This document shows positions 1 to 64,000 of a stretch of 64,000 nt of DNA, one piece after another. Under the pieces are notes generated by a model, which was not told the origin of the DNA, did not search any database, and saw only the letters and a program-made list of their open reading frames with translations. The position numbers and the translations under genes are program-made. Positions within the stretch are counted from its first letter, which is position 1. The number at the start of each line of letters is the position of its first letter. The stretch comes from Sipunculus nudus (Eukaryota; Annelida; Sipuncula; Golfingiida; Sipunculidae): contig CM049321.1 in assembly GCA_026874595.1 (NCBI GenBank), positions 21,858,979 to 21,922,978 on the forward strand, read 5' to 3'.

Positions 1-809
1 TGGTTTTTAGCATTATGGGAAGCAATAATTCTTAATAACATATTCTTTGAAATCTAGTCATTTTATGATAAAAAAATACACAAGTTAAAAAGCAAAGAGA
101 GTACGTCACTAATCTAAATACTACTATCTTAAGAAAACATTCTACATCAAGTTGACAAGTAAGTAAAACAAAAAACATTAATCCAGTCACTGGAAGTGCA
201 CAAAACATTTGAAGTTTGTGATGCACCTTGAATGAATGTGTTAAATTGTCACAATTCTTATATCTTGGTGGAAAAGTCTGTGATTGTAGATTGTTTTGAG
301 AAGAAGAGAAGAAAAAAAGGGACTGCCCAAAAGTGCCCACTTTATAGAGGTGCCCACTAGGAGAGGTTCCACTGTAGTAAAGTTCCAGCTGGACACACAA
401 TTGAGACGTCTACCTTCGAATAAGAATGTGATCTCAATTGAAAAACACCAGGCGGCTTATATATTCCACATTTTGTTGTACTAGATCGGCATCTTATGGT
501 CCGTATTAAAGACAAGATGGTAAAAATAATGTAAACGAAATTGCTAACGCATATACGATTTTAGAAGACGGAAAAAGTACAACACATAAATCGTAGCGTC
601 TTCTTAATTCATTGATCGCATAAATATTAGTCATTATTTATAGGAGAATATACAGCAGAAAAAATGTATTTGATATAGATAATTATATTTTGTTCCATAT
701 CTTTAGTGATTCAAACCATGCTAATTTATATTATATTATAATATTGTTTCATCATATGGGTTAGATGTGTCTTTTCCTTTTTTATGAAATTTAGAGTCGA
801 CCAAAGAAG
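1..809. other. AT-rich non-coding DNA upstream of the CARD exons
   Basis: I see no coding exon, RNA gene or clear mobile element here. Open frames are short, overlap on both strands and lack coding character. The interval should hold the promoter or 5' untranslated part of the CARD gene, but no core promoter can be picked out of sequence this AT-rich. A possible splice acceptor (tttag) lies at 790-794, so the first transcribed exon may be further upstream. Confidence 0.5.
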
Positions 810-956
810 ATGGATAAAATTATGACTAAGAAGCACATGGATGAGTTGGAGAAACATTTACCTACCTTAACAAGAAGCCTCCGTTTGACTGCACCGTTTT
901 GGGCTCTTCTTACAAAATACAAAATTTGTTTTGTACCGGATAGACAGGACATTGAG
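810..956 (+). CDS. CARD domain, first half (exon)
   Basis: An ATG at 810 opens 49 codons ending in ATTGAG, followed directly by GTATTA, a good splice donor. The peptide has the CARD pattern: a basic, helical start, then LPTLTRSL (the usual hLxxLVxxL helix), then FWALLTKYKIC and a D-x-x-D-I-E close. CARDs are six-helix death-fold modules that assemble signalling complexes through CARD-CARD contacts in apoptosis and innate immunity. The exon ends in phase 0 and joins in frame to the exon at 1,911. Together they give 96 residues, the normal length for a CARD, with no stop or frameshift. The fold assignment is by eye and the start codon is the first ATG after a possible acceptor. The downstream exons of this locus are broken, so the gene may be dead or may make only a short CARD protein. 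Confidence 0.72.
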
Positions 957-1910
957 GTATTACGCTAAACAACATCATTCGCATTCTGAGCATTCATTGC
1001 CAGATCATTAATTGTAGTAAGTTACCTAATCATACATTAGGTAACCCAATCATATATTTTGTAACGTTGAACAACGGGTACAATATTTCGCTTGCACTAC
1101 TTTTGATATAGCATGACACTATTTCCTTTCACAATACAAATTGCAATTAGATGGATTATTCTTACAAATGTAAAATACATGATGCCCCTAAAGTTATAGC
1201 TATTTATAATTGACTTTCTAAACAAAATACACATATTTCTACAGCTTAAGAAATGCTGAGATAAATCTTATGGCTTTTTAATTCACGCAGCTTGTGACAA
1301 TTGTAAATATTTTTGCACCAATCTATATTACTCCTATTCGCCCCGATTGGATTTTGTTTTAGCCAGACCCTAGGAACCATTATACTAAACTGTATTCCGA
1401 TAATTTATGTTTAAAGGCGAGGACTGTTTATTTAATTAAAAATAAATAACTCTAATAGTTCAGCTTGGGCAAGCACTAGCACGTTTCCTGTTCTTCCAAG
1501 GGGGACCTGCCGTGCTGCTAACAAAGATTGACATCTCTGGTCTCTTGGTAATGTGACAAACCAAGCCCCATTAGGCTTGACAAGCCAGATACTGGGAAAC
1601 AAGACTATCGTAAAATTAACCCATTTTAAGAATCGCCCATATCTGCCAGTACATCGACTCGGTAATTATACAGACTAGCCATTAGGCCACCGTTACTGGT
1701 GCATTTTTTTCTGTTGTATGGAAAATAAATGCTGGGCGAGAATTACACGAAACACATATATACATTATTCCCGCGGTATATATGTTTAATTTAATATATA
1801 TATATATAGTATATGTTCAAATATTTATATATGTTTATGTATATATAATAGTTTATTGTATAAATGTATATGTGTACATATACATTCATATATACACGCT
1901 TAAACTATAG
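957..1910 (+). other. Intron between the two CARD exons
   Basis: It starts GTATTA and ends CTATAG at 1,905-1,910, which keeps phase 0 across the junction. It is AT-rich with TA-rich runs near 1,795-1,860. A more GC-balanced block at about 1,450-1,705 may be an old dispersed repeat, but I could not place it in a family. No coding potential was seen. Confidence 0.5.
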
Positions 1911-2051
1911 AATAGAAAAAGTGCAGAAGGTGACAGGGTCATTGAGCTCGTGACTCTGCTAATGAAGAGACCAGACCGATGTTACAAAAAGTTTGTGGAA
2001 GCGTTGAGAGAAACCGACCAGGGATATCTGGCGGCGTTACTTGAAGTTAAG
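1911..2051 (+). CDS. CARD domain, second half (exon)
   Basis: The exon begins after the acceptor CTATAG, holds 47 codons in phase 0 and ends AAG before GTAGAA. The peptide contains DRVIELVTLLMKRPD, then YKKFVEALRET, then LAALLEVK. This is the typical second half of a CARD: the helix 4 pattern KVxxLLxxLxxR, then YxxFxxALxxT, then LAxLLE. The more familiar CAG at 1,922-1,924 would put the exon out of frame with exon 1, so the upstream AG was chosen. The next recognisable coding block, at 4,123, starts in phase 1. Either one small exon in between was missed or the gene structure is already broken. Confidence 0.72.
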
Positions 2052-4122
2052 GTAGAAGTTTTTCTTCTTTCATATATACATATAAAATCGAGCCCGTTTA
2101 ACTGAGTAAATGAATATAGCCTCCTGAATTGGTCTTCTGATATTATTCAATTAAGCAGATAATTCAAATAAGCAGGGTGTCTTCAAGGTTTTACCCGTCA
2201 TTATAACACTATAAATTGCATTATTTTGGTAAGCATGTGTTTTCCACGTTATTCGGATTGTTCCCAATTATCTGTTTTGGGATTTTGCCTATATTTTTAC
2301 TTCATTAGTTTATATAGATTTATTGATATGTTTGCAGTTTCAACGGAAAAATCTACACGTTTCCTTGTTTATATTTGTTATTTATATAAAAAGGATGTTA
2401 CCAGAAGGCAACAGCTGACCGATCCCATGAATATGTCAAAAAACGACGGGTATAATATGTTTGGAGGATTTTTATTTTTTATAACGTTTTATATGAAAGA
2501 TACAGTGAAATACTGTGTTTTACCTGTTTGTATTTGTCATTTAAAAAAAAAATGCTATGCAAAATTATTAACAGCTTAAGGTCGTTAGTTTTTAATATAT
2601 TTATAAATATACACATATACATTTATATACCTATGATTGTTATCATCGCTTATATCACATTAGTCCATGAATCAGTAGGGTATAGTTCCCCTCTCAGGTA
2701 GAATATCCTGTTATTTTATAAATCTGACGCGTTTAATCTTTGAAATATAAACCAATAAACTTATATCTATCCTATTTATCATTAAAACAGAAAACAACCG
2801 GTTATTTCGTGATTTTATAAGTATTACGAAAGTTATAGCTGATTTAAGTGACCATACCCTGTTTCCGAATTCCTTGAACAACGGAATTGGCACTTGGAGT
2901 AGGTTTGATATAAAAAAACATTCCTCCAGAAATTCGCCTTGTTTCAACCACTAGCATTCATATTAATAATCATTAGGATCGTTAGAAACAGTAAAATGAA
3001 CTCAGATTACGAAGCAAATAAAAAAATTATTGTCTTAATGTTTGATTAAACATTTCCCACCTCCAAAAATATTAAAATAATTGTATTGAGAACTTGATAA
3101 TACTGCATTTAATAAGCATGTACCTCGTCCAAATACACTTTTATATCTACCCTGTGGAGCAATAAAGGAGGAGCTGAAAGGTATTCGTTTCACTGCTATG
3201 GCAAGAGTATACATATAAGGAAATAACATAAGTAACAGTCGATTATATGACCATATTCCATATCCGATCACCCTCAGGCGCAAGCTTGGAACTTGGATGA
3301 GGTTTAATAAAAAGGGCAATTTCCGGAAAATCTGCTTGTTTCAAGTGCCTACATTCATCATTACAGACTATAGACATTTAGGTAGAACATAATAGGATCT
3401 AGAAAATTCCCTCAGAACATGGAGCTATACCATTACTGGCCATGGACATGATATATGACAGCTTAATCGGTGCATACTTATTACTCTGTATTGAGCGGTT
3501 TCTACCATATAACACATATACCTGTGAACAAATTGTTAACATACATAGTTTTAGTTATGATGACTCGAAATATATTTCTTCATTAAAGTAAATAAAAAAA
3601 GTAAATTGGTAAATTCATCAAGTATGATATATATGATGTTATACCTAAAGTTTCCAATCCATTATGTATTGAAGGTTTTTGACTTATTTCAAACATTTCA
3701 AATATATTTTAAACCGTTTTAATTGGAAATTAAACCTTTTGTTGTCAAAAACTAAAATGAGCTTTTGTTTGATATATCAGAAGTCACAAAAGTCTCGGAA
3801 GAATACGAGAGGCAAGTCTGTACAAAATGAGGTTTAAAAGTCTGGATATATTACATTTAGTTAGATAAAGAAGTTTTATGTTCCATTAAAACTTCCTGGT
3901 CAGATTGTTTAATATTGTTATGCATTATGTAACTTGTCATGTTCGAAGATATAAATTTATGTTCTGTGCCACCCCACCAATCGAATATTACAACAACAAT
4001 TTTTGTAGGCTTTGCTTGCTATATTAAAGTTTTCATTTGTATATTTTGACTTAAAGAACATGAATTTAAAAAGTTGCGATAAGAATGATACAAACTGAAC
4101 AGTATATAATTTCTATGAACAG
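2052..4122 (+). other. Intron-like interval with a diverged tandem duplication
   Basis: No recognisable exon was found between the CARD and the next coding block. Blocks at about 2,720-2,960 and 3,120-3,350 resemble each other at a spacing near 400 bp. Both contain a cacttggagtaggttt / aacttggatgaggttt core, then a ...ttgtttcaa... stretch and a ...cattcat... stretch. The open frames lying in these blocks on the minus strand are short and look fortuitous. Confidence 0.4.
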
Positions 4123-5413
4123 GAACGACATCAGTTGTGGCAGAGATACGTAAAGAGGACATCATAGACTTCATTTAGAATAAAGTTAAGTACATTCCAG
4201 CCAATGCGGAATATTGCAATGATTCAAGGTGTTTCTTCATATGTAATCTTTTGGAATTAAGGGATGAATATGAAACGGAACGTAGGACAACTGTACAGAA
4301 GCAGCCATTCGAGGACATCGTTGCTTCAACAGGGATATCCTTTAGGGAAGACGAGGAAGAGCTAGAGACCGAAGACTGTAAAATATGTTACATATTGGAG
4401 AAGAAAGTTGGGACAGATAGCAGTGGTTCTTTTAAGCAACCATTGGAAAATCACCATAAGGAAGTGCAGAAAGTGAGAAATTACTGCAAAAGAGTGATTC
4501 AAAAGGAACATGGGCAAGAAGAATTTGTTTTACACCTGAGAACAGAATGGGGTGATTGTAATTTGATCTGCGCAAGTGTGATCAATCTTAGTGGCAAAGC
4601 TGACAAGTGTTATGTGTGGGAAGAAATAAAAGCAGGGTTTGGCACAAAGAGATTTTATCCTGCCTCTATCACTATATTACTAGCTACCGGTCGAAGATTC
4701 AAAATGTATATCGGATTGTGCTAGTTACCCACTCTTATGGTGGAATATTGAGAAATCCTGATGTTTTGTTGTTTTTCTTAAACCTGATGTCTCGCTCCTG
4801 CGTTTCAGAGGTTCAAGTGGTGTATGGATATAAGGGTCATCAGAATGCTGAGATTGTTCAAAGGCCTTTTGTTGAAACCAAGGAGCAGGATATAGCCCTT
4901 AAATTCCAAAATCAAAACACTCAGTGGATTCGCTGCTTAGAGGATATTATCAATGAAGAAGCTGACGATTCGGTCGTCCACATGAAAGCAGAAAACATGT
5001 TCTGATTTTCGGATTCTAAGAACGTTTAAAAAACATTGGATTTTGGTGACATTCACATTTCACTAAACACCACTAGGTGGCTTCTGATGACCAGGCAGGA
5101 GTCCGAGTGTATGGTGAGATTGGCCAATCATTTCCAGGAAACAGTAGAAGAAGGGGAGATAGATCACATGACAAGGGTCCGTGTTGCACTCCCTCCAGCT
5201 CAGACTCAATTCCCTCTGCTTTATCCTGCTGGCTACAAGGTACCTGTTGAATTGTATAAGGAAATCATGGAGGATGCAAGCGAGGACGGTGAAAATTGGA
5301 AGGATTACTACAAAAGGCAAACTCATATCGGCGAAAACTACACCGGAAAGATCCTTCCCCATCCCGACATCATCATCCAGGAAACTGACGGTTTATCTGA
5401 TAGCAACCTCTGA
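4123..5413 (+). pseudogene. CARD-linked protein of unknown family, broken copy
   Basis: The reading frame begins after an acceptor (gaacag, ending at 4,122) and matches the intact exon at 63,373 along its length. Shared features are a C-x2-C pair, a C-x7-H pair 32-33 residues later, and W-E-x-I-[KR]-A-G-F-G-T. Defects relative to that copy and to reading-frame continuity are: TAG at 4,176-4,178; one missing base near 4,640, just after the FGTK motif; and in-frame TGA at 5,003-5,005 and TAA at 5,027-5,029. The last segment (5,036-5,413) is open for about 125 codons, acidic, and contains GENYTGKILPHPD near its end. An acceptor-like cgtttcag at 4,801-4,808 could mean that part of the middle is intronic. 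I know no family for this region. It probably lay downstream of the CARD in one protein, since it is on the same strand within 2.1 kb. With four lesions it is most simply a pseudogene. Confidence 0.65.
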
Positions 5414-6707
5414 ACTTTTACACGTTTGTTTTCCTGATATATCCTATAAGTCACATATGTTACAGACATTTATGTCTCTTTGAATATACATACCATTCAA
5501 ATAAGTAAATCTCATATTTCTAGTACAATCATAATGATCAGATTTTCATATGTCTTTTCATGATGTTTATTCATAATATCCATAAAATTCTATTCAATAT
5601 GTTTTTTTAATATACATTCCATTCAAATCATAAAATCATTCAAATCAGTATAAAAAATTCAATGTTTCATATTAACCTTTACCAAAATTTTTGTACAAAG
5701 AACAAACATTGTTCATTTTGAAAAGGCATAACGTTGCAAAGTTAGGTACCCAGATCAAAATGTGTTTACTGCAGGACTCTTCATTGGGAATTCAATTCGC
5801 TTAAAGCGATATGTAGCAATATTGTGATAGAGAATAGGAAAGGCAATGCTGTTAAGAAACGAATTTTAACAGCAGCTTTTGACTCATTAAACCGGGTCGT
5901 AATCTTCAGTGTTCTTAGAAAACTGGTAGAAAACTGGGCTTGGGCCCAATGTTCAACCAAGGGGTTAAACATAAACACCTGTTTTCACAAGACCACATTT
6001 AATGTTGACCTTGGAAACTGAAGAAAGGACTCCAAAATACTGTTATTCGTTCATATTAGTGTTCGAGGTGTTAACATAGATAGCAAATAGATAAAACAAT
6101 AAGTCTGTATTTCCTTATGTAAAAAATTCACTCTGGGTGTTCATGTGTATGATGGTAAAAAGCTTCACATGCAAATGTTATAGAGGCTTTTCAGACAATC
6201 TGCTAATCTAAGTATATATATTATAAGCACAAAGGGACAGCTGTGTTTGAAATTGCTTACCTTAATATTGATGAGAAATCAAAATCAATTTCCTGAAAAG
6301 AAAATTTTTATTGACTGGATATCATCCGAAAGAATAGTTGTTTTCATCTTGTTTCAACTAGTTATAAATCTACTTCATTTAATCGCTAAGCTTGTGTGAA
6401 TGCTCTTTCATACTAATAACATTTGGTTGTAAGCATTAACGATATAGTCAAAGTCTCATATTAGGATACAGGGCTGAAAGTGTGATACAGAATAGTTGAC
6501 ATGCCAGCGTCGTTTTTCAAGCTTTTGTTTGATTTCGCTGTTAAAATGCACTGCCAATATATGAAGCAATAAATTTTTCATTATGTTCAAAGGCCTATAC
6601 TATTTATATTATATCAGGTCCTTAATCAATGAACGATCAGGTGTTTTTGTTGTAACTTCAAGTAGCTTGAGTACAATACACTGTGTTCTAATCTGTGGAA
6701 CTCACTT
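5414..6707. other. Non-coding interval
   Basis: The interval is AT-rich. Two open frames at about 5,781-6,021 overlap on opposite strands and resemble nothing known, so they were not called. No repeat or RNA gene was recognised. Confidence 0.4.
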
Positions 6708-6839
6708 GTATGATAACTACGGACATTGTTTCCAGTCACGCAAATTTTATTATTTATACGCCTGTAAGCGCCTGTATGGCTACTACCGACGTCGTTTCCA
6801 GTCACGCAAATTTTATTATTTATACACCTGTAAGCACAA
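6708..6839. repeat. Two-copy 66-bp tandem repeat
   Basis: Units at 6,708-6,773 and 6,774-6,839 share a nearly identical core (tttccagtcacgcaaatttt and the following tatttata...cctgtaagc). They differ mainly in the first twenty bases. The spacing of the cores (6,729 and 6,795) gives the 66-bp period. Confidence 0.85.
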
Positions 6840-9823
6840 TCACAGAAACGAGGACTTATGATGTTACCGTGTACGGTGTACCGGTACTAGCTATGTAAAT
6901 GCTTGTAGGGTTACATATTATTACCGAATATGGTATATAGAACATGTGTGGTGTGGGGGAAGTTTCTAACTAGTCGCACGGTGTGTGTTTGTGTTTCGGG
7001 GGGTGGGGGGGCATTACTTCGCCAAGGGACACATACTACTATGACAGCTTCCAATGAACGAAACGGTAGTCATTTGTATCAAAGGTATCATTATGATTGT
7101 AGCGCATAAGTATTTAACAGAGGAGTGTCTTGGACCTCTTTGCTGGTGTCCCTGCTCTCTTCCAGTCCTTCTATATGACTGATTTTTTAGTACATGGAGC
7201 GGGACTATAGGTGACGTGCGCTGATTAATATATCAACGTTTAAACCACTAACATAGCTTGTGTTTACTACATGCCATCCATCAAGAAATTTGAAATATGC
7301 AACAGAACATACATGCCATCATGTTAACTGTTATATTACTTGTGTTTTAATATTTAAATAAAATCTCTATATCTAAGATAATGATATATACTTTTTTAAT
7401 CATTTGAATGTCTTCTTGCGGCTTTGCCAATAAATTAGCTTTGGATGTATGTTTCAACTGCATAATGGCTTTGAATATATGTTTCTCCTTCATATGTTCT
7501 CTCATTAGGGTCTTCTTTCATTCATAAACGGGGAACATCTATATAAGCTCTCAGATTATTCCCTGATACTCTTTTACTCTGATATATGAAATAAATTCAA
7601 CATGTTTTTCAACATTTATATGTTTATTTGTTTGTGAAACAATACAATAATGAACAACATGTTAAGATGGTATTCCATGATATAGAATAGATATATATGT
7701 AAATCATATTATAATATATATTCGATCATATAATGTAAATATTATATATGAAATTATTACTGTGAATAAATGTTAAACATTATGATTAATACATATACAT
7801 ATGAGTGTAAAATAAATTAGATATTGCTTATTATTCTTTTTTCTGATGTTACAAATAAATGTTACATTTGAAGTATATGATGAACATGACAAAACAGCTT
7901 CAGGAGTCACAAATATACATGTCTTAATGTATTTTTATATGATTTGGGTTTTTTCAGGAAAAACAGCAAACAAAAAATTTAGGAAAAAGGACACTCGGAA
8001 ACAGCCATAGAGAAAGTCAGTGGGGTTTATTTTTAATCTTTATGTGAACACGTTATTGTCAGAAGATATACTGCCATGGTCACAACGAAATCTGAAAAGG
8101 AACAAACGTTATATATCATAATTGATTGTCTATATTCATTATTCAGACACATTGAAGGAAGAGTTCTTACTGATGTTGTGACCTTATCGGGGTACTTGCT
8201 GCGGCAAAATCTTCTTATAATATAAAGATTATACGTGATAAGAAAAGTGATCAGAAACTGTCAGGAAGGTTAGCAAATTATTTATTTCTATGCAATCTAC
8301 CCGTTGGTGGTTAGTGCAAACAATAAACAAAACGTAAAATGACCCATTATTACATCACACAATAGCTGATAAGCTAACTTCGTCTGATGTTTGAATAATC
8401 TTTTTGGTATTTATTTTTTTTTATTTTAAAGAGTCTTTGGTAAAAGAAATAATGAAAGTAATCATTGAACTATTGAATGAATGGAACGTTTGTATGTTTT
8501 TGGGTGTTCAAATATGGTTATCTGCTGACTTCAGCGAGTGAGGCGGTGATTTAGGTCCAGGTCGTTTTAAATAATTGGCTAGAATGACCGAGCTGTAATG
8601 TCATATTAGGTCTATAGCACGGGATATTGGAAAAAAAGGAATATGTCATCATTATCTGACCGGTCCTACATCCATTATTTAATTGAAGGATACCGCCTGT
8701 GTCTATAATGCGTATATAACATAAACAAAACCCATGAAGCCTGGATCCTGTATTCATTATGAAAATAATTTCTGATATTACACCCTTTATAAATGAGAAT
8801 CTATTGTTTTTTACAGTCAAACATGAAAAAATGACTTGTGCATCTCATTTTCTCACAATTCTCGTCCAAATGCAGTGAAGCAAAAATAACACCTCTAAGC
8901 AGTCTCAAAAGGCATATGGACAACATTTTTTTGACTGGCCACAGATTTAAAAATATATGACTGATGCCAACAATTTGTTTGATATTTTGCTAAACATTCA
9001 TTTAAATCAAACAATAGTTTTTATATGACTCCTGTCATAATGGCTAGAGCCAACCAGAGCAGGACAAAATATTCACTACTCTTCATCACTCAGGTGTGGT
9101 AAAACAAAAAGGACCACAGAACAAGAAGGTAGTTGCATGTTTTCCACCAGATGTCACCACATATACTGGGCACCTTCATTCTCAACCTATAGGATATACC
9201 TATGAATGTCAAGGATACACTCATGCCCATAACATTCTTCTAGCTGTTCCACTTTATAAATTGTTAATGACAATTTTAAAGTATATGGAGTAAATATAGA
9301 GCATGTCGCAACAACATCCATTTCGAATATAACCAGGATGATGTATTTGGCAGTGAAACATATTTTTTATCCTGCCAATCCAGTGGATCTATATTACAGT
9401 GTAATATCCCTGATGCGGCATTTTAATATAATAAAAAATTTATATCTTGTTTTTGATATAACGTGATACATCTCTTTCTAGAATGTCACTCGATATACGT
9501 TACTCCTTACTTGTGCCCTAGGAAAAAGGGTGCCCCTACAACGTGACGGACCTGATTTCCTATGTTTTAACGTGGTAAAGTTGAGATGTTAGGTGTTTTG
9601 ATGGCGCACTTCTCGTATCGGCACTCGGGTACACAACAAACACGAGCCAGTGGTTAAGCAACACGGAATATATATTGAAATAAAGTAAAAGTAAAGGATT
9701 CAAAACCATCTACCAGATAGGATTTCATGCCCATTACGCCTTAAACCTAAATACACTGGTTGCACACTAAATGAAATTATAGTAAAAACACAGAGTCCGG
9801 TTACAGTTCGAGTCTCTAGACTC
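6840..9823. other. Long non-coding interval
   Basis: It contains a GT/G-rich patch at about 6,980-7,011 and long AT-rich tracts at 7,560-7,900. An open frame at 9,096-9,293 follows an acceptor-like ctcag but has no recognisable domain, so it was left uncalled. Nothing else supportable was seen. Confidence 0.4.
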
Positions 9824-9987
9824 CAGGGGTCTGTTGCAATAAGGTCACTTAAGTCATGTAGGTGACTTAAGCCTAGGGCTATATGTGTGTCATTATGGGG
9901 ACCATTATGAAGTAACAATTGTAAAAATGGTACTTAGGCCTGCTACTTGGGTTGAATCCAAGAATATGTAATTGCAACAGACCCCTG
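9824..9987. mobile_element. MITE with 17-bp perfect terminal inverted repeats
   Basis: The element starts CAGGGGTCTGTTGCAAT and ends with its exact reverse complement, 164 bp in all. Inside the left end, cacttaag and gtgacttaag form a second inverted pair. It has no coding capacity. A CAGGG start is common among hAT-type non-autonomous elements, but the 8-bp flanks (ctagactc and aactgact) are not a clean target duplication, so the superfamily stays open. Confidence 0.75.
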
Positions 9988-10339
9988 AACTGACTATACT
10001 TAACCCCGACTTGCGGCACTTTACCCTGGCAGGGTGGCTCCTGGATACCGATTACTCTCAGATTGTCCCCACACTGAGTATGCACCCCTCTTAAATAAAC
10101 TCCTACCAAGGATGCTCAATAATATTCATAAGACTGATACAAAGCCTGGGACTGCTTCTTTACCATGGCTATAATCTCAAACAGCTTCTTCTTTCTAATA
10201 TTGTATATGGTTTGTATTTCTGTATAAATGACGTGATGTTTTCCGAATATGCTTGAGGAAAAATCTTTGAGCCACAACTATTTAATTGACGAATCATTTA
10301 CAGTACTTACGTATCCAGTCGTTCGGGGTTAACTGGGTA

Positions 10340-12092
10340 TCATTTAAAACCCTTGGTCCGTATATTGGAATACATAGGTAGAATAATGATCGACATGATT
10401 TTTTTACCCACTGTTAGGAGATATCTGGGAGATACTATACATATCTTATGTTCTTACCAAACATACGTGGGTGCCTATTTTACAAACAAGGGACACGTGA
10501 ATGGAATAGTTAAAGAAATTTAATCATTGGTAACAGGAATCTCATTTACTCTGATCGAAAAACGATCCACCTCGAGCTTCTTCTTGGTTGGGAGTCCAGA
10601 AAAATATCAAAATCGTTTTCGGAAAAATATGCATTCTTTTTTCTATAATCCTTTTGTTGATTATTAGCACTAGCTGTATATTTCGCGTTTAAAATCACAA
10701 CAAAAACGTTAATCATAAACATAAACGATGAAGGTATGGAATGTAGGTGAGATTCTTTACTTTTACAAAATTCATAACCAATTCCGTAAGTAAAGATCCT
10801 CGCTCTGTCTCATTTTATGATTTTATATAAATAATGTGTCTTTTGTAGATATTCTACATGTAACATGTGACATATTAATCTACATGTAACCAAGTTAAAA
10901 TCGAAAAAGAAAATTATAAGAGCAGCCATATTTGTTTTTAATATGGACAATGCGTACGTTTTAAGACGTCTATTATCATGCAATAATGGATATAAGGCAT
11001 TTGGTCTTCACTGAAAACTGTTAAGGTGATACGTTACTAAAACGATCGTGCAAGAACGCCTTAATGGATTTTAATTTAGATGTTTGTTCATTATTGAAAC
11101 TCATCAGTATGCCGTGGGAGTATTGTTATTGATTTTGCGAAACATTTACAATATTTAAGTGTCAAATTTGGTACAACAAACGAACCATATGCAAATTCTA
11201 AAAAGTAACAGCAGTACAGTATCAAACTTTCAGAAAGAATGCTGCAATTTTTACTTTATTGTCATGTTTGTTGGTCGCCCCCTTCAAATATGTGGTTTTG
11301 TGATGAATATTATCGCCTAGGCCACAGCTATAAGTGCATTTTATAAGTAGTCGCGCTGCTATAGAACCACACTACCATCACCGTTATTATAATATTGTAT
11401 CAAAACAAACATTGTATGATCGCTCGATTAAAAAGAAGAGCCATATGTATAATTGAGTTGGTTGATAGGCTTCTCTTCCATACATTGAATGTAGCTTAAA
11501 GGTTTGAGAGGACTGTTATCCCTGCAGTCTGGCTTTGATGAGAATCCAGGCAAAATATTATTTACAATAATCAGTTGTTGTTGCAAAGTCACAGAAGCCC
11601 CACCAGATGTCACTACAGTTGCACAATATTTTTTTTGCCAGGGGATCCCTCGCGGTGAGTAAGCTCAAATATGGCGGGTGTATGTAGCTCATGAAACCAG
11701 GAAAAACCACTCAAGTTGTCGCTGTGGGGATAAATATAGCTTTACTAGTATGGCACGAGGTTTCCTGCTTTAAGGTGGACAATCTTCACTGAAAGAGGTA
11801 AATCTAATTAACACTACCAAATACATAAGATATAGTTAAATACTAAAACAATTAATGTTGTTACTGGGTAATACTTAACAGGTCATTGATGTAAATTGCA
11901 CACGGTAGTAGGTTAACCTTAAACCGTATGAATAACAGGTGACAGCTGTTTGACACAAGCTCATTGCGATTGAAATAAGATGAGCGGCTGTACAATTATT
12001 GAAGACATACGAGCGGTATATTTAACCCTGAACACTACTTAAACCTTGTCATAGACATGGACCATGCTTATCAACTAGAGTGCTGAATGGAG
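10340..12092. repeat. Segmental duplication, left arm (partner at 32.1-33.0 kb)
   Basis: Several blocks align in the same order with 32,120-33,040. One is ggtccgtatattggaata near 10,356, matching tgtccgtatattggaata near 32,130. Others are the following ...cacgtg... and ...aaagaaatttaatca... segments. The last is catgcttatcaactagagtgctgaatggag just before 12,093, matching gatgcttattaactacaatactgaatggag before 33,049. The copies are clearly diverged, with indels. No gene was recognised inside. Confidence 0.6.
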
Positions 12093-13927: not shown

Positions 13928-14520
13928 AGGTGGGAATTCCATCCAAAATGGCTCCCATGTTACAAAAAAATCTGAGGACAAACAGTCGTGACTTTTATTT
14001 ATGATCAGCCAACCAAGGACGTAGACACGTTCAGAGCCTTACATTTAGCAGGAGGCTAACTGGGAACTGGTATTTTTTTATGGTTTTATGAATGATCCTC
14101 CCTCAGGAGGCACACCAGTGTATGTCCAGGTGCGAGGTCTTTACCCATATAGTTACAATTACGTGCATAAATCATTAGCATACAATTATACACGCAATGT
14201 TAAGAAAAACAACCAGCGGGGAGGAGCAAACAGTTAGCAAGAGGCTACGTGTACACTTCCTGGTCGTTATGCTAAATGTCGGTGTGCTCAGTTTATTTGG
14301 TTACTGTCGTGGGCGCGTTGCGTCAGCTTGCACAGTTTCGGATGAATGCGTAAACAATTTTGCAAACATCTCAGAGGTTTGTTTTCATATTATAAATGGT
14401 CGTGTGTGTTTTTTTTGTGAAATCATCTTTGTGTATTTCGAATGTATGAACCAAGCACGCCTGTGTAATAGGCATATCATTTGTGATACTTTCTCCTCCA
14501 GTCATTCATTCTTTGTTTCC
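13928..14520. repeat. Segmental duplication, right arm (partner at 33.05-33.66 kb)
   Basis: This stretch aligns with 33,049-33,660 through several blocks: ggctcccatgtta against ggttcccatgtta; aggaggctaactgg against aggaggctatctgg; and the ...cataccatttgtaat... / ...catatcatttgtgat... segment near the end. It continues the left-arm homology after the transposon is removed. The alignment stops where OTU coding sequence begins, so the partner has lost its OTU exon or never had one. Confidence 0.7.
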
Positions 14521-15472
14521 CTGGTTCCTTGTCCTCCACAGCGTCATAGTATCCTCCCGACGGTTCGGTGTACACGACATGTACAGTTCCCGTAACCACT
14601 TGGCCCTCCATGTGAATATCCAAGGTGGTTACGACAGGGTTAGCTTCTCCACCCCCGAGAGTAACGAGAATATTAACCGCATACAGTAGAGTCAGTGTTG
14701 CCAGACATTCATGGCCGGCAAATACCCCTGGATGTGACAGATATGTTAAGTGCTGCTCAATGCTGTGTCCTGGGGCTCTGTCCTGAAGGTAATCTCCGAA
14801 TAATACCAGGTTGTTTCTTATGTTCAAGACTGCTTGATGTCTCAAAAGCAAGTGGTTTTCCTGGTGGTCGAATATACCTTGTGATATAGCTCGGAATAAA
14901 CAGTTCCCGACACCTTTAACCTGTTGCCTGCATTTGTAGAATAAAGCCAGGTATTCAGTTACTTCCATAACCTCTAATATAGGTCTCCTTGCTTTTTTAT
15001 TTCTATTCTGGTGTCCTTCTAACTGGTCTAATTCTATGTCAAGGATGACATTCCAGTCCCCACCAATTACTCTATGGTTGTTTCCTATGTCATTTATGAT
15101 TTCGAAAATATTATCATAGAATCCTGGACAATCATTATTTGGTCCATATATATTTACCAATGTTATTCTAAAATCATTCAATAAACAGTCCAAAATTATG
15201 AGTCTACCTTCATTATTTGACCTCTGTTTCAATACTTCAAATGATACATTATTTTTAACAAGTACAGCTACCCCTCTAGCATTGGTATTACCATGACTAA
15301 AAGTTATTTTGTGTCCCCATTCAGCCTTCCATAAGTGTTCTGTTTCACTGCAACTATGTGTCTCCTGCAAAAATATTTTGCTAACGTTCTTTTTCCTGTG
15401 TAGCCAATAAAATACTTCCCTTCTTTTCATAAAATTCCTGAGACCCCTGACATTCACTGAAAGTACATGCAC
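14477..15472 (-). CDS. Chimeric ORF: LINE endonuclease N-terminus fused to an OTU domain
   Basis: The frame is 331 codons. Residues 1-173 are the N-terminal part of a LINE APE-type endonuclease (start MHVLSVNVRGLRN, FLQETHS, NIYGPN, GGDWNV). From residue 174 the frame becomes an OTU cysteine-protease domain: YLALFYKCRQQVKG, then the nucleophile motif, then AGHECLATL and ILVTLGG, with GGYYDAVED close to the end. OTU proteins normally remove ubiquitin from substrates, using Cys with a C-terminal His. Here the D-G-N-C motif reads V-G-N-C (V188, C191) and the usual H-Y-D is Y-Y-D (Tyr at about 308), so catalysis is probably lost. The OTU end is the true C-terminus of OTU gene copy A. The fusion arose because a LINE piece sits inside the gene. 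Whether it is transcribed is unknown. A non-functional remnant is the simpler view. Confidence 0.6.
   Translation of the reverse strand: MHVLSVNVRGLRNFMKRREVFYWLHRKKNVSKIFLQETHSCSETEHLWKAEWGHKITFSHGNTNARGVAVLVKNNVSFEVLKQRSNNEGRLIILDCLLNDFRITLVNIYGPNNDCPGFYDNIFEIINDIGNNHRVIGGDWNVILDIELDQLEGHQNRNKKARRPILEVMEVTEYLALFYKCRQQVKGVGNCLFRAISQGIFDHQENHLLLRHQAVLNIRNNLVLFGDYLQDRAPGHSIEQHLTYLSHPGVFAGHECLATLTLLYAVNILVTLGGGEANPVVTTLDIHMEGQVVTGTVHVVYTEPSGGYYDAVEDKEPGKQRMNDWRRKYHK
14744..14953 (-). repeat. 210-bp direct repeat of OTU sequence, copy 1
   Basis: It matches 15,653-15,862 with only about three differences that I can see. One of them turns GAC (Asp) into GTC (Val) in the D-G-N-C motif. The two copies bracket the LINE segment. 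Confidence 0.92.
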
Positions 15473-15652
15473 ACTATGTGCATTTTATTGTAGGAGTACC
15501 TGCCATTATGAGAGTATCTTGTATTGACAGTTACGGGTAAACCAAAACCACCAAATGTTAAAACATGTTAAGACGATATACACTTCACCAAATAGTGATT
15601 TTAACATTTTATTTTTCGTATTATAGAAATTATCTTTCCGTATACGTATCAC
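14954..15652 (-). mobile_element. Internal LINE fragment inserted in the OTU gene
   Basis: About 700 bp match 20,172-20,874 of the larger LINE at roughly 99 percent by eye, with about eight differences. The piece spans the end of the ORF1-ORF2 spacer and the first part of the endonuclease. It lacks both LINE ends and any 3' tail. Both junctions share a few bases with the OTU sequence: tgt at 15,653-15,655 and ta near 14,953. This is not a standard target-primed LINE insertion. Confidence 0.9.
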
Positions 15653-15904
15653 TGTTAAGTGCTGCTCAATGCTGTGTCCTGGGGCTCTGTCCTGAAGGTA
15701 ATCTCCGAATAATACCAGGTTGTTTCTTATGGTCAAGACTGCTTGATGTCTCAAAAGCAAGTGGTTTTCCTGGTGGTCGAATATACCCTGTGATATAGCT
15801 CGGAATAAACAGTTCCCGTCACCTTTAACCTGTTGCCTGCATTTGTAGAATAAAGCCAGGTACTCATCTTGAACTGTGTATTCCTCACAGACAAGGATCG
15901 CCAT
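15506..15904 (-). pseudogene. OTU-domain gene copy A, N-terminal part (interrupted)
   Basis: The ATG at 15,902-15,904 starts MAILVCEEYTVQDEYLALFY, followed by VKGDGNCLFRAIS, an intact OTU nucleophile motif. OTU sequence continues to about 15,653, then runs into LINE sequence and stops at 15,506. The exon probably begins at an acceptor (tgttgtag on the minus strand, plus positions near 15,920). The original protein would have continued into the OTU end now found at 14,477-14,743. As it stands, this piece has the catalytic Cys but not the C-terminal His region. Confidence 0.75.
15653..15862 (-). repeat. 210-bp direct repeat of OTU sequence, copy 2
   Basis: Partner of 14,744-14,953. This copy keeps the canonical D-G-N-C codons and joins the natural N-terminus of the OTU gene. 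Confidence 0.92.
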
Positions 15905-16667
15905 ATTCGTACTTTGAGCCTACAACAACCAAAAGTCCAATTAAGTAAGAAGTTACGAAGAAATTTGATAATATTTGTAAAAAAACCCAAAGAAATAAAA
16001 GAAAAAAATACATTCTGACATAGTATTTTTGACATATATTATTGAGCCGATGGCGATATATTTGTACAATTATGTACAAATTGAACATTGTTCTGAAGAA
16101 ATCTAAATAATGTATGTATCACGCATGGCCATACTTTAATAGTTTTTCTAGAAAGCTCCGAGCTTCCATATTCCTCGCCCATAAGATAATGATCAATCTA
16201 TTTTGCAAAGATATCATAATCTGCCCCACGCGTTACACACACTGTGGTCCACCTTGCAAGTCTTACTTGAGGGGAACTTTCTTTCATATTGCGTCTGCCG
16301 GGAACAAGGGGTCTCCTGATAGGTAGAATGAGTTTGGCTAAATAGTCTTACAGGTGTCAAGATAAAATGTGTAACGGATGGGACATATTTGTTAGAAATA
16401 CAATTTTAACTGACAGTGACATTGCATTTATACGACTCTAAGACATAAAGTAAGTGACAAAACTAATATACACCATGGACTATTTTAAAACCAGGCACAA
16501 TTCATATCCTTATACAATATCTTAGGAGGAATTTTGCATATTTGTCAATAAAAAGTTTATGGAATCCTCGTTACGGATCGGAATAAATGCTGGTATAATG
16601 TTGTATGTTTTCACTACAGGTATGCTATAATATCCCCCTCTAATTATTTTTTTTATTAAACAAAAGT
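15905..16667. other. Non-coding interval upstream of OTU copy A
   Basis: The first 130 bases still align with DNA upstream of the dead OTU copy at 28.6 kb (shared aagaaataaaag), so they are intron or promoter of the old gene. No other feature was recognised before the LINE tail. Confidence 0.45.
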
Positions 16668-17005: not shown

Positions 17006-20000
17006 TTACCATTTTGCCATGCTATACTTTTTTTCAATTTCCATAATATGATTTATGAAGATGAGTGCATCGGTTGGTGTCGGCTTCTTTTGTCTGCACC
17101 GACTTATAAATATAAATCTTTTAACACACAAAATAACGCTGCCTATCAAACCATTATAGTTACCCAATATTACGCTTTCTGCATTAAAGGTAAAAGTTGG
17201 TGATATATTATCACATTTGGTCAACCAGTTACGTATTTCATCCAATAAAGCCTTTGAAAAAATACACAACCAAAAAAGGTGAATGTAACTTTCATTTTCT
17301 GTTCTACAGAAAGTGCACTTAGAATCAGCAACTATTCCCATTTTTGATAGCCTGTCATTTAAATACAATGTTCTGTTCAATATCTGATATTGAAACATTC
17401 TTAACTTTACTGTGTTTGTAGTCTTCCTAAGCTTCATGTACACTTCCCGAACTGTGTCTGGGTTATCAATATTAAGCTCGTATGCCCACTTTTTAATGAT
17501 TTTGATGGAGTTGTATAAACCTTTTCTATGAGCTTTCCATACACATATTTTGTTACTGTTTTAATCCCAGTTAAAGAATCTATTTTGTATATTACATGAT
17601 CATCAATTTCTTCCTGGTTTATTTGTATGGTTTTCTTCCATTCAGTAGGTATACAATTGATTAACCCCTGATACAATAAGAAGTTTATCTGTATATTAGT
17701 TTTTGAACAAAAATCATTATAATTTAAAAACCTGGTTTTGCCTCCATCAATACGTAAAAGTATGTCTTTTATACACCTGATCCCTGAAGAATATAGCTTC
17801 TGTATGAACCTTATTTTATTATTTATTTTTAAATGAGAGTTATACCACAGTAGCTGATTGAGGATTTCTGTTTGACTTGTTGGTATGTGATAATGAAATT
17901 TGCACCATTCATGAAAAACCTCCTTCCAGAAAGGGTTTTTAATGGACACACAGTTTACTGCATCCTTTAAGTCTAAGTTACATTTAAACATGTCTGCTTT
18001 CAGAGGAAACATACTTAGTATATGATTCCTCCATACATTCTTATTATTTTTATAAGCAGTTTTTTAATCCAACTAATTTTTAACGCTTTATTCTGTGTCT
18101 GTATATTAACCATATATAATCCCCCTTTTTCATATGGTGCTACCATTGTTGTGCGTTTAATTTTGTCTGGTTTGTTTGACCAAATGAAATTGTAAAGAAT
18201 AATTTCTAATTTCTTCAGGTTACCTTTTCCTGGGTTAGGTAACACTGACAGAAGGTAGGTTAACTGAGATAAAGCATGACTTTTAAGTACTGTTATCTTC
18301 CCCATTGTTGTCAATCTCCGCCCTTACCATGATTTTAGAATTCCTTCGATATCTACTAGTTTGTGCTGGTAATTGTCTTTTAACAGACATTGTAAAGATG
18401 GTCTGAAGGAAATTCCCAGTACTTTGACTGGGCCTTTTGTCCATTTTAAACCGGCTTCTGCAACCTGCATTTTGGCATAGTGTGTGTTAAAGTCGTTAAC
18501 TGTGAGGGGCATTATTACCGATTTACTCATGTTGATTTTTAATCCTGACTGACTTTCAAATTCTTGTAAGATTTAAAACGACTCAGAAATACTCTTTATG
18601 TCAGATAATAGCAAAATGGTGTCATCTGCATATTGCAGAACCTTGTAATTGTAGTCGTCTATATTTATTCCAGTAATTTTCCTTTCTCTTCTGATCTTTT
18701 TTGCTAATAATTCTGAACAGAGAATGAATAAATATGGTGACAAAGGGCACCCTTGTTTAACACCTCTTGATGGCATAAAGAACCATCCATTATTGATTAC
18801 ACATGTGTTTGAATCTTTGTATAATGTTTTCACCCATTTCGTAATGTTTTCGCTGAAATTGAAGTATTCTAATGATTTCCATATAAAAGACCATTCCAAG
18901 CAGTCGAAAGCTTTTTCATAATCGATACTCATTCAATATATCCTTCAAAATCTTGTTCATTTGCACTGTTTATAACTGTAATTATCTTGTTTATGTTTTC
19001 GCCAATGTATCTTCCCTTCATGAAGCCAGTTTGATCTTCATTTATAAGATTTGGAAGTATTTTTTTAATTCTATTTGCAATACATTTGGATATTAATTTG
19101 TAGTCTATATTCAAAAGTGTAATTGGTCTCCAGTTTTTAAGATTTAATAGATTTTTGTCTTTTTTGGTAGAAGTGTTATTACACCCCTGTTTTGTGATGG
19201 TCCAAGTTTGCCCTCTTTTAAACTGTATTCTATTGCGTTCATAAGTAATTCTTTTAGGTCTGCCCAGAAAACTTTACAGAATTCTGCTGGAATGCCATCT
19301 AGGCCAGGTGACTTGTTTTTTGCAAAAGATTTGAGGACTGTTAAAATTTCTTTTTCATTAATTTGTTCATCTAAATTTTCTTTCTCCTGCTCATTCAGTT
19401 TTTCATGATGGGACAATTCTAAAAAAACTGTTAGTTATGTTTTGTTCTGTAACCACAGATTCATAGAGCTTTTCATAAAATTTCTTTTGTTCTATTAAAA
19501 TCCTTTCAGGGTTCTCAGTTACTGTTCCATCAGGAAGATTTATTTTGTTTATCACTTTTCTGTTGTAGTTTCTTTTCTCTAAATTCAAAAAAATACTTTG
19601 TTGGTTTCTCACCATGTTCAAACCATCTGGCTCTACTCCTAAATATAGCCCCTCTAGTTTTATCCTCCATAATCTTCTCTAGATCGTTCTTGAGTGTAGC
19701 AATGAGTATCTGATTGTCCTTGGTTTGATCCTCTTGTAGAGTTTTAATTTTTGATTCAAGTTCATTTATTTTACAATTTTTCTTTGTTTTCTTATTAATA
19801 CTAAATGGGATTGATTCAGTTCGTATTCTCATTTTAAGTACTTCCCATAAAGAAACTGGGTAAGCTTCTGCATTGCCTTTCACTGTATTGATTATGGTTT
19901 TCTTTATGAGATAAACATATTCGGGTTTATAAAGCAAGAAACAGTTCAGTTTCCAGAAACCTGGTCCCCTTTTGTGAATCTGAGTGTTTAATCCTAAAAG

Positions 20001-20693
20001 CAATGCTTGGTGGTCTGTTTTATATCCTGGAATAATTTCTACACATTCAACTCTACCTTCAAGACCTGCTGATATTAAAAAGTAGTCTAATCTGCTGCCG
20101 ACTGTTGTAAGAAAATGCCGGGACCAGGTATATCTTCTCTCTTTTTTATTACGAGTTCTCCATATATCAATTGTTTCAGTTACTTCCATAACCTCTAATA
20201 TAGGTCTCCTTGCTTTTTTATTTCTATTCTGGTGTCCTTCTGACTGGTCTAATTCTATGTCAAGGATGACATTCCAGTCCCCACCAGTTACTCTATGGTC
20301 GTTTCCTATGTCATTTATGATTTCGAAAATATTATCATAGAATCCTGGACAATCATTATTTGGTCCATATATATTTACCAATGTTATTCTAAAATCATTC
20401 AATAAACAGTCCAAAATTATGAGTCTACCTTCATTATTTGACCTCTGTTCCAATACTTCAAATGATACATTATTTTTAACAAGTACAGCTACCCCTCTAG
20501 CATTGGTATTACCATGACTAAAAGTTATTTTGTGTCCCCATTCAGCCTTCCATAATTGTTCTGTTTCACTGCAACTATGTGTCTCCTGCAAAAATATTAT
20601 GCTGACGTTCTTTTTCCTGTGTAGCCAATAAAATACTTCCCTTCTTTTCATAAAATTCCTGAGACCCCTGACATTCACTGAAAGTACATGCAC
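17006..20693 (-). pseudogene. LINE ORF2: endonuclease-reverse transcriptase, broken
   Basis: Domains in order are as follows. The APE endonuclease (about 20,693-19,980) shows N-terminal LSVNVRGLRN, FLQETHS, NIYGPN, GGDWNV, SRLDYFLIS and TDHQALLL. The reverse transcriptase (about 19,400-18,500) shows KSPGLDGIPAEF, DQTGFMKGR, SIDYEKAFD, GVKQGCPLSP and the catalytic YADD. The C-terminal region has CTFCRTENESYIHLFWLC, a CCHC-type knuckle. Frameshifts lie at A7 19,587-19,593, A7 19,421-19,427, T6 19,160-19,165, near 18,930, T6 at about 18,059-18,064 and T4 at about 17,522-17,525. In-frame stops lie at 18,573-18,575 and 18,324-18,326. Reading across them gives one collinear ORF2 of the usual length of about 1,230 codons. 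Most shifts fall in homopolymers, so some could be assembly errors. Confidence 0.9.
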
Positions 20694-20726
20694 ACTATGT
20701 GCATTTTATTGTAGGAGTACCTGCCA

Positions 20727-21311
20727 TTATGAGAGTATCTTGTATTGACAGTTACGGGTAAACCAAAACCACCAAATGTTAAAACATGTTAAGACGATAT
20801 ACACTTCACCAAATAGCGATTTTAACATTTTATTTTTCGTATTATAGAAATTATCTTTCCGTATACGTATCACTGTACTAGTGAGCGATAATTGACTCTT
20901 ATATGAACTGTTTGCAATAAGATTGTTAAGTAACTTCTTATTTATATTCAACTGAAACACAACAAGGTATGGACGAAACATGAGACATTTAAATTAAACA
21001 TGAAATAATATAATTATAATTCCCCTACTGGTATGGTCACAGCCACTGGCACTTTACCGGAGCTACGCAATTGCACCAAGTCCAACTGTTTGCGTCGCCG
21101 TTTTACCAAAAAGTTCCAATTACCATGCTTCCCTCTGTCTTCAACCAATAACACTAAATCAGTTTGTGCGAGAGGTCCGTTTCTTGCGCATACGCACAAC
21201 GTTTACCACGTGTCTTGGTGCGAACCCTCATCAACCAGTGTGTGTTTCTGTCGGTATTGCCTTGTCGTTGACTTTGTGTTAATCCCTGTTGGGTATCAAT
21301 GCTTGAACTCT
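20727..21311 (-). other. LINE spacer between ORF1 and ORF2
   Basis: An open frame at 20,727-20,981 has no recognisable domain. The part below 20,875 is the segment copied into the OTU gene. The rest of the spacer shows no conserved protein. Confidence 0.5.
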
Positions 21312-22196
21312 CTATGCACCCCTGATCTGGACCCGTTCGCCTTCAATGTGCAGCTGACCCCTCCAGAAACGAACCTTTTGGCCTGCCCCGTATGCTTCCT
21401 CCATCTGCGGTTTTGCCTTTTGTTTTAGTTTGTAATCGGCCTTTGTGAGGTCCTCTGTCACCCGGAGATTTTTCCCTTGCAGACACTTTTTCCCATTCAC
21501 TAAAATTTTGTCCTTGACCCCTCTACTGAAAAATCTTATCAGAATGTGTCTGGGACGATCGCCTTTCTTGCCAGTTCTGTGAGCATTTTCTATCAGTTCT
21601 CTCACTTCATCTTCATTCTTTTCAGCCAGAAGCTTGTGTGTGTGTATTATTTTTGCAGCTGTTTGTATACAGTTTTCCATTTGGCCAGTCTCTCCCATTC
21701 CGACAAGACGCAGGTTCCACTAGCGCAGATACCGCTCTTGTTTATTTGATTCTTCAGACACTTTCTTCTTAAAATTTTCTATTTCAATTTCTTTGCGTTT
21801 GTTTTCTTCTTTAACCTCCTCTCGACCTTTCATCTCGGTGATATTTGTATCCATTGTATCATATCCATTTTCAATTACATTTACTTTTTGCTTAAGGTTT
21901 TCCTGTTCAGCTGTCAGTTCATCTAATCTTTTCGTTAAATCAGTGTGCATAGAACTTATCTGGTCACTGAGCTCCTTGCACGAGTTCTTCACCAACGCTT
22001 TCATTTCGGCCATGAGACCTTTGTATTGTCCGGTTGTGTCCGTGGCAACTCTCAACACACCGGCCCCCTGCTCACTGCTTTCGTCCTGGTCATTTACCGT
22101 GGTATTTCCTGCATCCTTTTGTATATATTTATCAATTTCCCCAGCCGGGTTGGTTGACTTCTTATTTCCTTTATTTCTAGTCATTTTATCAACCAC
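21312..22196 (-). pseudogene. LINE ORF1: coiled-coil RNA-binding protein with one stop
   Basis: The ORF has 294 codons and one in-frame TAG at 21,720-21,722. The N-terminal half is charged and heptad-rich (from about LTKRLDELTAEQENLKQKV onward), a trimerising coiled coil in L1 ORF1 proteins. After the stop, NLRLVGMGE and then ENAHRTGKKGDRPRHILIRF match the RRM and C-terminal domain of L1-type ORF1 (Transposase_22), which coats LINE RNA. It lies upstream of ORF2 on the same strand. Apart from the single stop, the frame is intact. Confidence 0.85.
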
Positions 22197-22291
22197 TGAT
22201 GCGACTTACCGTATACTTTTTTCTGTTTAACGTCAGCTCCGGTAAAGACACTACTTCATCCCACCATTACGTGGCCGGAAGTCGATCCCCC

Positions 22292-35030: not shown

Positions 35031-35087
35031 TTGGGAAGTATTTAAATTTTAATTCAGAAAATGCATTTCAGAAATTTCACCTCGTTT

Positions 35088-35550
35088 TTAGTCCATGTCT
35101 TTCACGGCGTCGTAATGGGGTCCACTGCTTATGTAAGAAATCTGCATTATTGTATGTGACTGTTGACCAGCGTACAACATGATTCCTGACAGGGGTTCCA
35201 TCTTTTCCTCCAAGGGTGATTAACACCTGCATCTGATAGCGGAGGCACAAGGCAACAAGACACTCGTGGCCGGCGTACGTCCCACATCTCCCTAGACTGG
35301 CCAGGTACTGCTCAGGTTTTGTTTCAGGAAGGAATTCTTTAAACAAAGGCAGGTTATTTCTGATGATGTCGACAGCCTGTTGACGGAGGATGGGGTGATT
35401 TTCTTCATGGCCCCACAAATCGCGCGATACTGCTCTAAACAGACAGTTTCCATCCCCTCTAACAGGGACTCTGACCCTCAGTACACTGTGAAGGTAATCG
35501 TCCTGTTGTAACTTTTCTTGCCAGTCAGGGTGGTTGATCTGGTCACTCAT
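35088..35550 (-). CDS. OTU-domain cysteine protease-like gene, copy C (one frameshift)
   Basis: The exon begins at ATG 35,548-35,550, directly after an acceptor (atcctcag on the minus strand). Asp33-Gly-Asn-Cys36 is the intact OTU nucleophile motif, in VRGDGNCLFRAVS. YAGHECLVALCLRY and VLITLGGKDGTP follow. In this frame the ORF runs on to 35,077 without a catalytic His. In the +1 frame the DNA encodes GPHYDAVKDMD and a stop at 35,088-35,090, which matches the C-terminal H-Y-D-A-V of OTU proteases and aligns with GGYYDAVED of copy A. A single indel near 35,170-35,200 therefore separates Cys from His. The family cleaves ubiquitin from proteins, often in immune signalling. If the indel is an assembly error, this is the one intact OTU gene in the window. 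Otherwise it is a recent pseudogene. Confidence 0.8.
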
Positions 35551-39700: not shown

Positions 39701-39719
39701 TAAGTATGCTGTGAAGTCA

Positions 39720-42700: not shown

Positions 42701-42800
42701 CCCAATCGACATTATTATTATCGTCTTATTATTCACTTGTTATCATCATCATGCCTTTTATGGTTCACCTTCATATTAATAATTATATAAATATAAATTT
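39720..42800. repeat. Repeat unit 2 of the 37-51 kb array
   Basis: It carries all the modules of unit 1. Its last module, 42,280-42,504, is an open frame of 74 codons on the plus strand after an acceptor-like tttag; the matching module of unit 1 has stops. A (GT)n run lies at 42,664-42,683. Unit 2 is closest to 48,930-50,990. For example, the acaccgattgg...gaatcgactacctggagcagaagac stretch at 39,738 is almost the same at 48,941. Confidence 0.8.
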
Positions 42801-43814: not shown

Positions 43815-44300
43815 CATCTGAGGACGTGCCAGTGATCGTATATAAGTCATATCTTTCAGCAGTAATAGTGAACAGGTTATCACGGCTGTCTGGGGGGGGG
43901 GGGGGGTGCACCAAAGTAACTTGTGATATTTCGTTCTCTGAAACAAATAAACTTTTAAATTTTACTAATCCATAGGTCAGACAGATTATTCCCTAGTATA
44001 TCTAATATATGTAATATTAGATTTTGCAATATGTGAAATTAGGGTTCTGATCTCTTCTGAGGAGAAGGAAATATCCAATGGCATTATATCATCAGTCTGG
44101 AAATTAACAGATATCTCTGGAGATATCTAAGAAGACTAGAGTCCTGTTTGGTTTAGTGTCTTTTATACCAGCATATATAAGAAAGGTCTATATTTCAATT
44201 ATCATAGTCTTCTTAACTATTGGAAGATATGTAAAAATTAAACTTTAATCTTAACACTCGAATAATATATATACAGCTACGAATATAATTTTAATATGCA
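43815..44300 (-). pseudogene. OTU locus copy D, lacking the OTU exon
   Basis: 43,815-44,190 aligns with the 3' side of OTU copy C (34,722-35,030), and 44,200-44,300 aligns with DNA upstream of copy C (about 35,860-35,960). The roughly 830 bp between those points in copy C, which hold the whole OTU exon, are absent here. A G run of about 16 lies at 43,891-43,907. This is the remains of an OTU gene whose protease exon was deleted, or a copy made before the exon was gained. Confidence 0.6.
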
Positions 44301-48560: not shown

Positions 48561-48599
48561 GCATGAACCTTGCCTTATATTGCTTTATTATTGTATTTA

Positions 48600-63218: not shown

Positions 63219-63372
63219 TATTAGGATATATATCACTATGTTATGCTTTATAAAAAAAATATAATTTACATTTAAATACACTATATACAAGTACATCCAA
63301 GCAATCATGTCCTTGTATTCAATCCATATGTGTCATTTATTACTCATACATGTGTATATTAACATATTGTAG
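62711..63372. other. AT-rich DNA with TA and CA microsatellites
   Basis: (CA)(TA) tracts lie at 62,893-62,921, 63,053-63,083 and 63,167-63,213. The end, catattgtag at 63,363-63,372, is the acceptor of the next exon. Confidence 0.6.
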
Positions 63373-64000
63373 TGGTGGCTAAGAGTAATCAACAAGGCTC
63401 AAGTGGTGTGAAGGACAAATTGACAAGTATATCTCCTGATCAAGTATGGACATACGTGAGGAATGACGTGAAGAACTTTCTAGAAAGTAAAGTAAGGTTT
63501 CTGCCAGTAAATAATGATTACTGCAGGAAGAAATATGAGTATTATATGGATCATCCAGATCAAATTGCTGAAGAGTATAAAAATGAACGTGGAGGCCGAG
63601 TACATGAAGAACTGGTTAGAGAAGGTGCACATCCCATTGGTTTTAAATTCCTATACAAATTGCAATATACAGTGTATGATATCTACAGTGGATGTAGAAT
63701 ATGTAGGATCCTGCAGCAGAAGGTAAGAAATGAGACTAATGGTGACTGGTGGCAGCAGCAGTTGAGTCAGCACCAGCAGTCAGCAGAGAGAGTGACCAAA
63801 TTCTGTCATCGGGGCGGGGAGGGCGACCATGGGGAACTGGTCTTATATCTGAAATTAATGGATTGTATTATGTATTATTACCTACCACCTGTTATATGGG
63901 TGAGCATATATGACATGAAGAGACACAATCAGTCAGGTTTCATGTGGGAGTCCATCAGAGCAGGGTTTGGGACACAGGAGTTCCTCTCTTGTCTCTTGTG
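63373..64000 (+). CDS. CARD-linked protein of unknown family, intact copy, runs off the window
   Basis: The frame is open for 208 codons from the phase-1 acceptor to the window end. There is no ATG near the start, so this is an internal exon. Counting from the first full codon (63,375), Cys107 and Cys110 form GCRIC, Cys144 and His152 follow (FCH...GDH), then GELVLYLK and WESIRAGFGT at 191-200. The broken copy at 4,123-5,413 keeps the four putative metal ligands with nearly identical spacing (C-x2-C-x32/33-C-x7-H) and the WE-I-AGFGT motif. That conservation between diverged copies suggests a zinc-binding domain under selection. By analogy with the left copy it should follow a CARD, but no CARD exon was found upstream within the window. 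I cannot name the family. Confidence 0.72.

Follow-up and report, generated by a model that had tools for sequence, protein, structure and literature searches.

A 64,000-nucleotide stretch of the Sipunculus nudus genome (assembly GCA_026874595.1, contig CM049321.1, positions 21,858,979 to 21,922,978 of the forward strand), referred to below as the window, holds a true CARD, encoded by two exons at 810-2051, and a true but unrecognised protein family, termed domain X, in the form of one degraded copy (copy 1, the block at 4123-5413) and one open copy (copy 2). Our preferred reading, to which we give a probability of about 0.5, is that the block is a degraded copy of an uncharacterised multi-copy family, with the CARD as either its N-terminal half or a separate gene. 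A more specific version, possible but held at less than even odds, is that intact members of the family consist of an N-terminal CARD and a cysteine-conserving X domain unknown to the libraries searched, and that they belong to an immune gene family undergoing duplication and decay in this animal lineage. The window as a whole is AT-rich (35% G+C), its coding regions are split, and Rfam found no match anywhere in it.

The CARD at 810-2051

The first-pass annotation had assembled two phase-compatible exons into a 96-residue CARD, and this assignment stands. Exons 1 and 2 join in phase 0 to give a 96-residue translation, with no stop in their 288 bases. A CARD profile search on this translation, named beforehand as a possible refutation, returned the Pfam CARD (PF00619, a member of the death-fold superfamily) with an expect value (E) of 4e-6 and 27.2 bits, above the cut-off of 23.9; the match runs over profile positions 4-84, 81 of the 85. 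Most of the signal sits in exon 2, since this exon by itself matches at E 8.6e-5 and 22.9 bits, slightly below the cut-off, whereas exon 1 by itself gives no CARD match at E up to 1 and contributes about 4 bits once joined. Exon 2 is also detected in a whole-frame Pfam scan of 1-5783 (E 0.019). The CARD is genuine. A PDB sequence search with it gave as its best match a designed protein at E 0.041, which is not usable, and a search for its relatives in viral contigs yielded five pattern stretches, none confirmed by tblastn.

Codon pattern was scored with a model trained on 799 codons of the window, taken from copy 2, from the OTU frame at 35080-35562 and from the frame at 55418-56695, against a null of 3000 random noncoding draws per length. 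The last of these, the largest training frame, is backed by length alone: it is a 426-codon open frame on the + strand, the longest in the window, with no Pfam match above cut-off. CARD exon 1 scores 0.07, which exceeds the 95% point of the null but falls short of the 99% point; exon 2 scores 0.17, above the 99% point, with another frame of the same stretch at 0.19.

Two copies of domain X

The region downstream of the CARD had been described as unrecognised, and so it proved: neither the block nor copy 2 has a Pfam match above cut-off, NCBIfam (five proteins) and PADLOC (four proteins) gave no family at E up to 1, and a PDB sequence search with the block found nothing better than E 0.59. The evidence that it is nevertheless a protein domain comes from within the window. 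A tblastn search of the block against the window revealed copy 2, about 59,000 bases away on the same strand and absent from the earlier annotation. By blastp the two copies are 27-28% identical (27% over 170 columns), at E 3e-19 or 5e-15 according to the choice of query; their pairwise score is 75.1 bits, against a maximum of 28.1 among 1000 shuffles of copy 2 (989 of which scored at all). Each of the five cysteines that copy 2 has in the compared columns is also a cysteine in copy 1, against an overall identity of 41 in 148 columns, a count made without the last 12 aligned columns, which lie past the frame change described below. A C-x2-C pair with a later cysteine and histidine might, at a guess, bind metal. 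Copy 2 has no in-frame stop in its 636 open bases, and no frame of at least 181 codons arose in 40 simulated 64-kb sequences (that of copy 2 has 212). The two copies are paralogous, and with a paralogue in the same window the unrecognised region is therefore a real protein family.

In both copies a stop lies close upstream in frame, with no ATG between it and the homologous region; members of the family therefore depend on an exon further upstream, and an N-terminal domain encoded there is plausible. Two other shared features were given no weight: a VVA near the start of both copies, which MAFFT aligned across a 23-residue gap, and a common exon-start phase, since the phase of 4123 is found at three of eight AG sites in copy 2 and three of four in copy 1.

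Copy 1 had been treated as ordinary open coding sequence, a view that was not borne out. It is interrupted in the frame of 4125 by a TAG at 4176, and in the frame of 4604 first by a TGA (5003) and then by a TAA (5027); the TAG lies inside the stretch aligned by tblastn to copy 2 and so falls in ancestral coding sequence. Where copy 2 reads GFGTQEFLSCL, copy 1 has GFGT in the frame of 4125 and KEILSCL in that of 4604; because these lie in different frames, copy 1 has probably undergone a frame change near 4640-4650. The exon carrying the first part of the domain would begin at 4123 or 4146, among other sites.

Codon pattern is largely retained in spite of these interruptions. The stretch 4125-4640 scores 0.15 (null maximum 0.09; another frame of the stretch 0.10), 5030-5410 scores 0.20 (null maximum 0.12), and 4808-5002, in the same frame as 5030-5410, scores 0.21 (99% point of the null 0.07, maximum 0.24). 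Between these parts, 4706-4807 in the frame of 4604 is noncoding-like (-0.28), and the 60 bases of 4643-4702 are too short to judge, with scores of -0.42 (frame of 4604), -0.15 (frame of 4125) and 0.20 (third frame). The pattern is thus coding-like over most of the block, which nevertheless carries three in-frame stops in this assembly. With these stops and the probable frame change, copy 1 is a probable pseudogene, unlikely to produce a full protein.

Table 1. Coordinates of the CARD exons and of the parts of the two domain X copies.
Feature	Positions	Strand	Remarks
CARD exon 1	810..956	+	49 codons from ATG, phase 0 at end; open frame, GT donor GAG/GTATTA (slash, exon end)
CARD exon 2	1911..2051	+	47 codons, phase 0 at both ends; acceptor TATAG, donor AAG/GTAGAA
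Block A, first part of domain X copy 1	4123..4645	+	frame of 4125, TAG 4176; paralogous to 63363-63998; probable frame change about 4640-4650
Unclear stretch, partly noncoding-looking	4646..4808	+	may be a small intron; last bases a pyrimidine-rich tract, then CAG
Block B, C-terminal part of copy 1	4808..5413	+	single frame with TGA 5003, TAA 5027; ends at TGA 5411-5413
Copy 2 of domain X	63363..64000	+	212 codons open (63363-63998), runs past window end; needs upstream exon

Searches for X in virus and prokaryote collections say little about an animal family: pattern stretches numbered 283 in viral contigs and 234 in prokaryote genome contigs, none confirmed by tblastn, and the part at 5030-5410 gave a single stretch in viral contigs, likewise not confirmed by tblastn. 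In literature word searches, which are blind to an unnamed domain, no paper came up that names the combination of a CARD with domain X; public databases may well already contain the domain within an uncharacterised protein. AlphaFold2 models of copy 2 (212 residues, two-row alignment) and of the 4604-5410 read-through (modelled from one sequence) reached a mean predicted local distance difference test score (pLDDT) of 41.5 and 36.2, respectively, both too poor to interpret.

Weighing the link between the CARD and domain X

The earlier proposal had been that of one protein, a CARD continued by an unrecognised domain. Its components have held up, the CARD as a real domain and X as a real unrecognised family with a paralogue in the window. 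Their union has fared less well, given the three in-frame stops in the block, the want of a bridging exon above noise and the want of a CARD exon-2 match within 5.8 kb before copy 2; what is left is a possible new CARD architecture. The end of CARD exon 2 lies about 2.1 kb from the block, on the same strand.

Several observations tell against our preferred reading, and they fall into two sets. Those in the first set bear on the link. The acceptor at 4123, which looks the likelier, requires one base carried over from the prior exon, whereas CARD exon 2 ends in phase 0. This phase mismatch had been noted before and taken as the sign of a missed exon. It holds for acceptor 4123; however, with the AG that ends at 4145 as acceptor, an exon would start at 4146 in phase 0, in agreement with CARD exon 2. 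This is a weaker acceptor than 4123, and the tblastn alignment with copy 2 begins slightly downstream of it; since it fits the phase, the mismatch at 4123 is not decisive and a missed exon is not required. When bridging exons were sought through 2052-4122 (entry phase 0, exit phase 1; a short exon could escape), the best candidate scored 3.9, and the top scores in seven noncoding stretches of equal size ranged from -2.1 to 4.3. Finally, the 5.8 kb before copy 2 contain no match resembling CARD exon 2 (three-frame Pfam search, no family at E up to 1); the scan of 1-5783 did find exon 2, so a comparable exon is absent there. A CARD exon for copy 2 could lie further upstream than 5.8 kb, or be more diverged.

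The second set bears on the decay of the block. An intron at 4690-4808, from a GT at 4690 to the acceptor at 4809 and in phase with the frame of 4125, would need no frame change, and the poor score of 4643-4702 in the frame of 4604 also tells against such a change. The donors that fit this acceptor in phase are that at 4690, for the frame of 4125, and one at 4740, for the frame of 4604; both depart from the usual donor consensus. The reading frame could genuinely stop at the TGA at 5003, copy 2 being cut off before Block B and so providing no homology check there, and a 127-codon frame like that of 5030-5410 is ordinary by length (a mean of 1.35 per simulated 64 kb). The codon test is not fully independent, as the training sequences include copy 2, which is related to the block. 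The stops themselves could be assembly errors.

The alternative that survives best, tentative but to be taken seriously, is that the CARD and the block are unrelated neighbours: a short gene at 810-2051, with the CARD alone or with some other continuation, and a dead X copy whose own 5' exon has been lost or goes unrecognised. The phase mismatch at acceptor 4123, the bridging candidates at the level of noise and the lack of a CARD exon-2 match before copy 2 all speak for it, as do 12 AATAAA/ATTAAA signals in 2754-4023, though AT-rich DNA commonly contains these. Against it stand the shared strand and the 2.1 kb spacing, the need of the X family for an upstream exon, the fit in phase of acceptor 4146, and the lack of other recognised domains nearby: the three + frames of 2052-12052, in which split exons can escape (as CARD exon 1 does by itself), gave no Pfam family at E up to 1 and hence no known CARD partner domain, and the - frames of 1-8000 gave no Pfam family either.

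It is unlikely that the CARD-X gene is intact and that its apparent stops stem from errors of assembly or base calling. Such a gene would account for the coding-like codon pattern that most of the block keeps, and that an old pseudogene is expected to lose, and an intron at 4690-4808 would make a frame change unnecessary; but three in-frame stops fall within 1.3 kb of the block, against none in the 288 bases of the CARD exons and none in the 636 bases of copy 2. Least probable by far, and rejected, is that X is an alpha/beta hydrolase of PGAP1 type and the locus a CARD-hydrolase: the frame of 4604 reads VTHSYGG and around it weakly matches Pfam PGAP1 (PF07819) at E 0.035, but the 14.3 bits over 33 residues are far below the cut-off of 24.3, the first glycine of the GxSxG nucleophile elbow characteristic of these hydrolases is replaced by threonine (THSYGG), and the motif falls in 4706-4807, a stretch with a noncoding-like score in that frame and an unreliable structure model.

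To return to the preferred reading, a degraded member of a multi-copy X family beside or joined to a CARD, what it would mean depends on which of the two applies. If the joined form exists, then, from what is generally known of CARDs, it would probably work as other CARD adaptors or sensors do: the C-terminal X would sense or regulate, receiving the signal, and the CARD would recruit partner CARDs by CARD-CARD contact into a signalling assembly; if intact siblings carry both parts, X would be an uncatalogued partner in CARD signalling. Otherwise the locus amounts to a dead gene copy next to a CARD gene, an ordinary arrangement where immune regions evolve fast. Relatives could be sought, and function tested, from the sequence of the open copy at 63.4 kb.

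Known systems and neighbouring features

The CARD resembles its Pfam family over nearly the whole profile; the locus differs from CARD proteins with a known partner in that no recognised partner was found in the + frames of 2052-12052 scanned above. In the same frames no helicase and no RIG-I C-terminal domain was found, in contrast to the lophotrochozoan RIG-I-like receptors, whose N-terminal domains, CARD included, are described in the available text of PMC8998645 as rapidly exchanged, with exon-intron changes. The available text of PMC8195603 describes TRADD-N adaptor proteins as showing lineage-specific expansions in bivalves and other marine invertebrates, the genes being multi-copy with many domain partners. 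X resembles them in its multiple copies; it differs in having no Pfam or NCBIfam family above cut-off and, so far, two copies, both in the window. CARD is among the abundant domains of a mussel transcriptome according to the available text of PMC3308963, and as a whole word it is absent from that of PMC11700175.

Elsewhere in the window, three open reading frames (ORFs) are of OTU cysteine-protease type, at 14480-15484, 15509-15919 and 35080-35562 (all -); of the two scanned with Pfam, OTU is recognised in the first at E 1.8e-7 and in the third at E 1.7e-11, and a DGNC motif is present in the second and third, not in the first. Part of the second, 15653-15866, is 98% identical to 14744-14957. 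The first looks mosaic, a retrotransposon-type endonuclease start running in frame into the OTU domain, and its 14954-15253 is 99% identical to 20175-20474, within 19533-20705 (-). The latter belongs to the remains of a non-long terminal repeat (non-LTR) retrotransposon at 17009-22205 (-), with an endonuclease recognised by Pfam at E 1.2e-9 at 19533-20705 and ORFs that, from their motifs, we take to be reverse-transcriptase-like. Duplicated stretches occupy 36900-50900, about 9.2 kb apart and 82-92% identical, with more related copies at other spacings.

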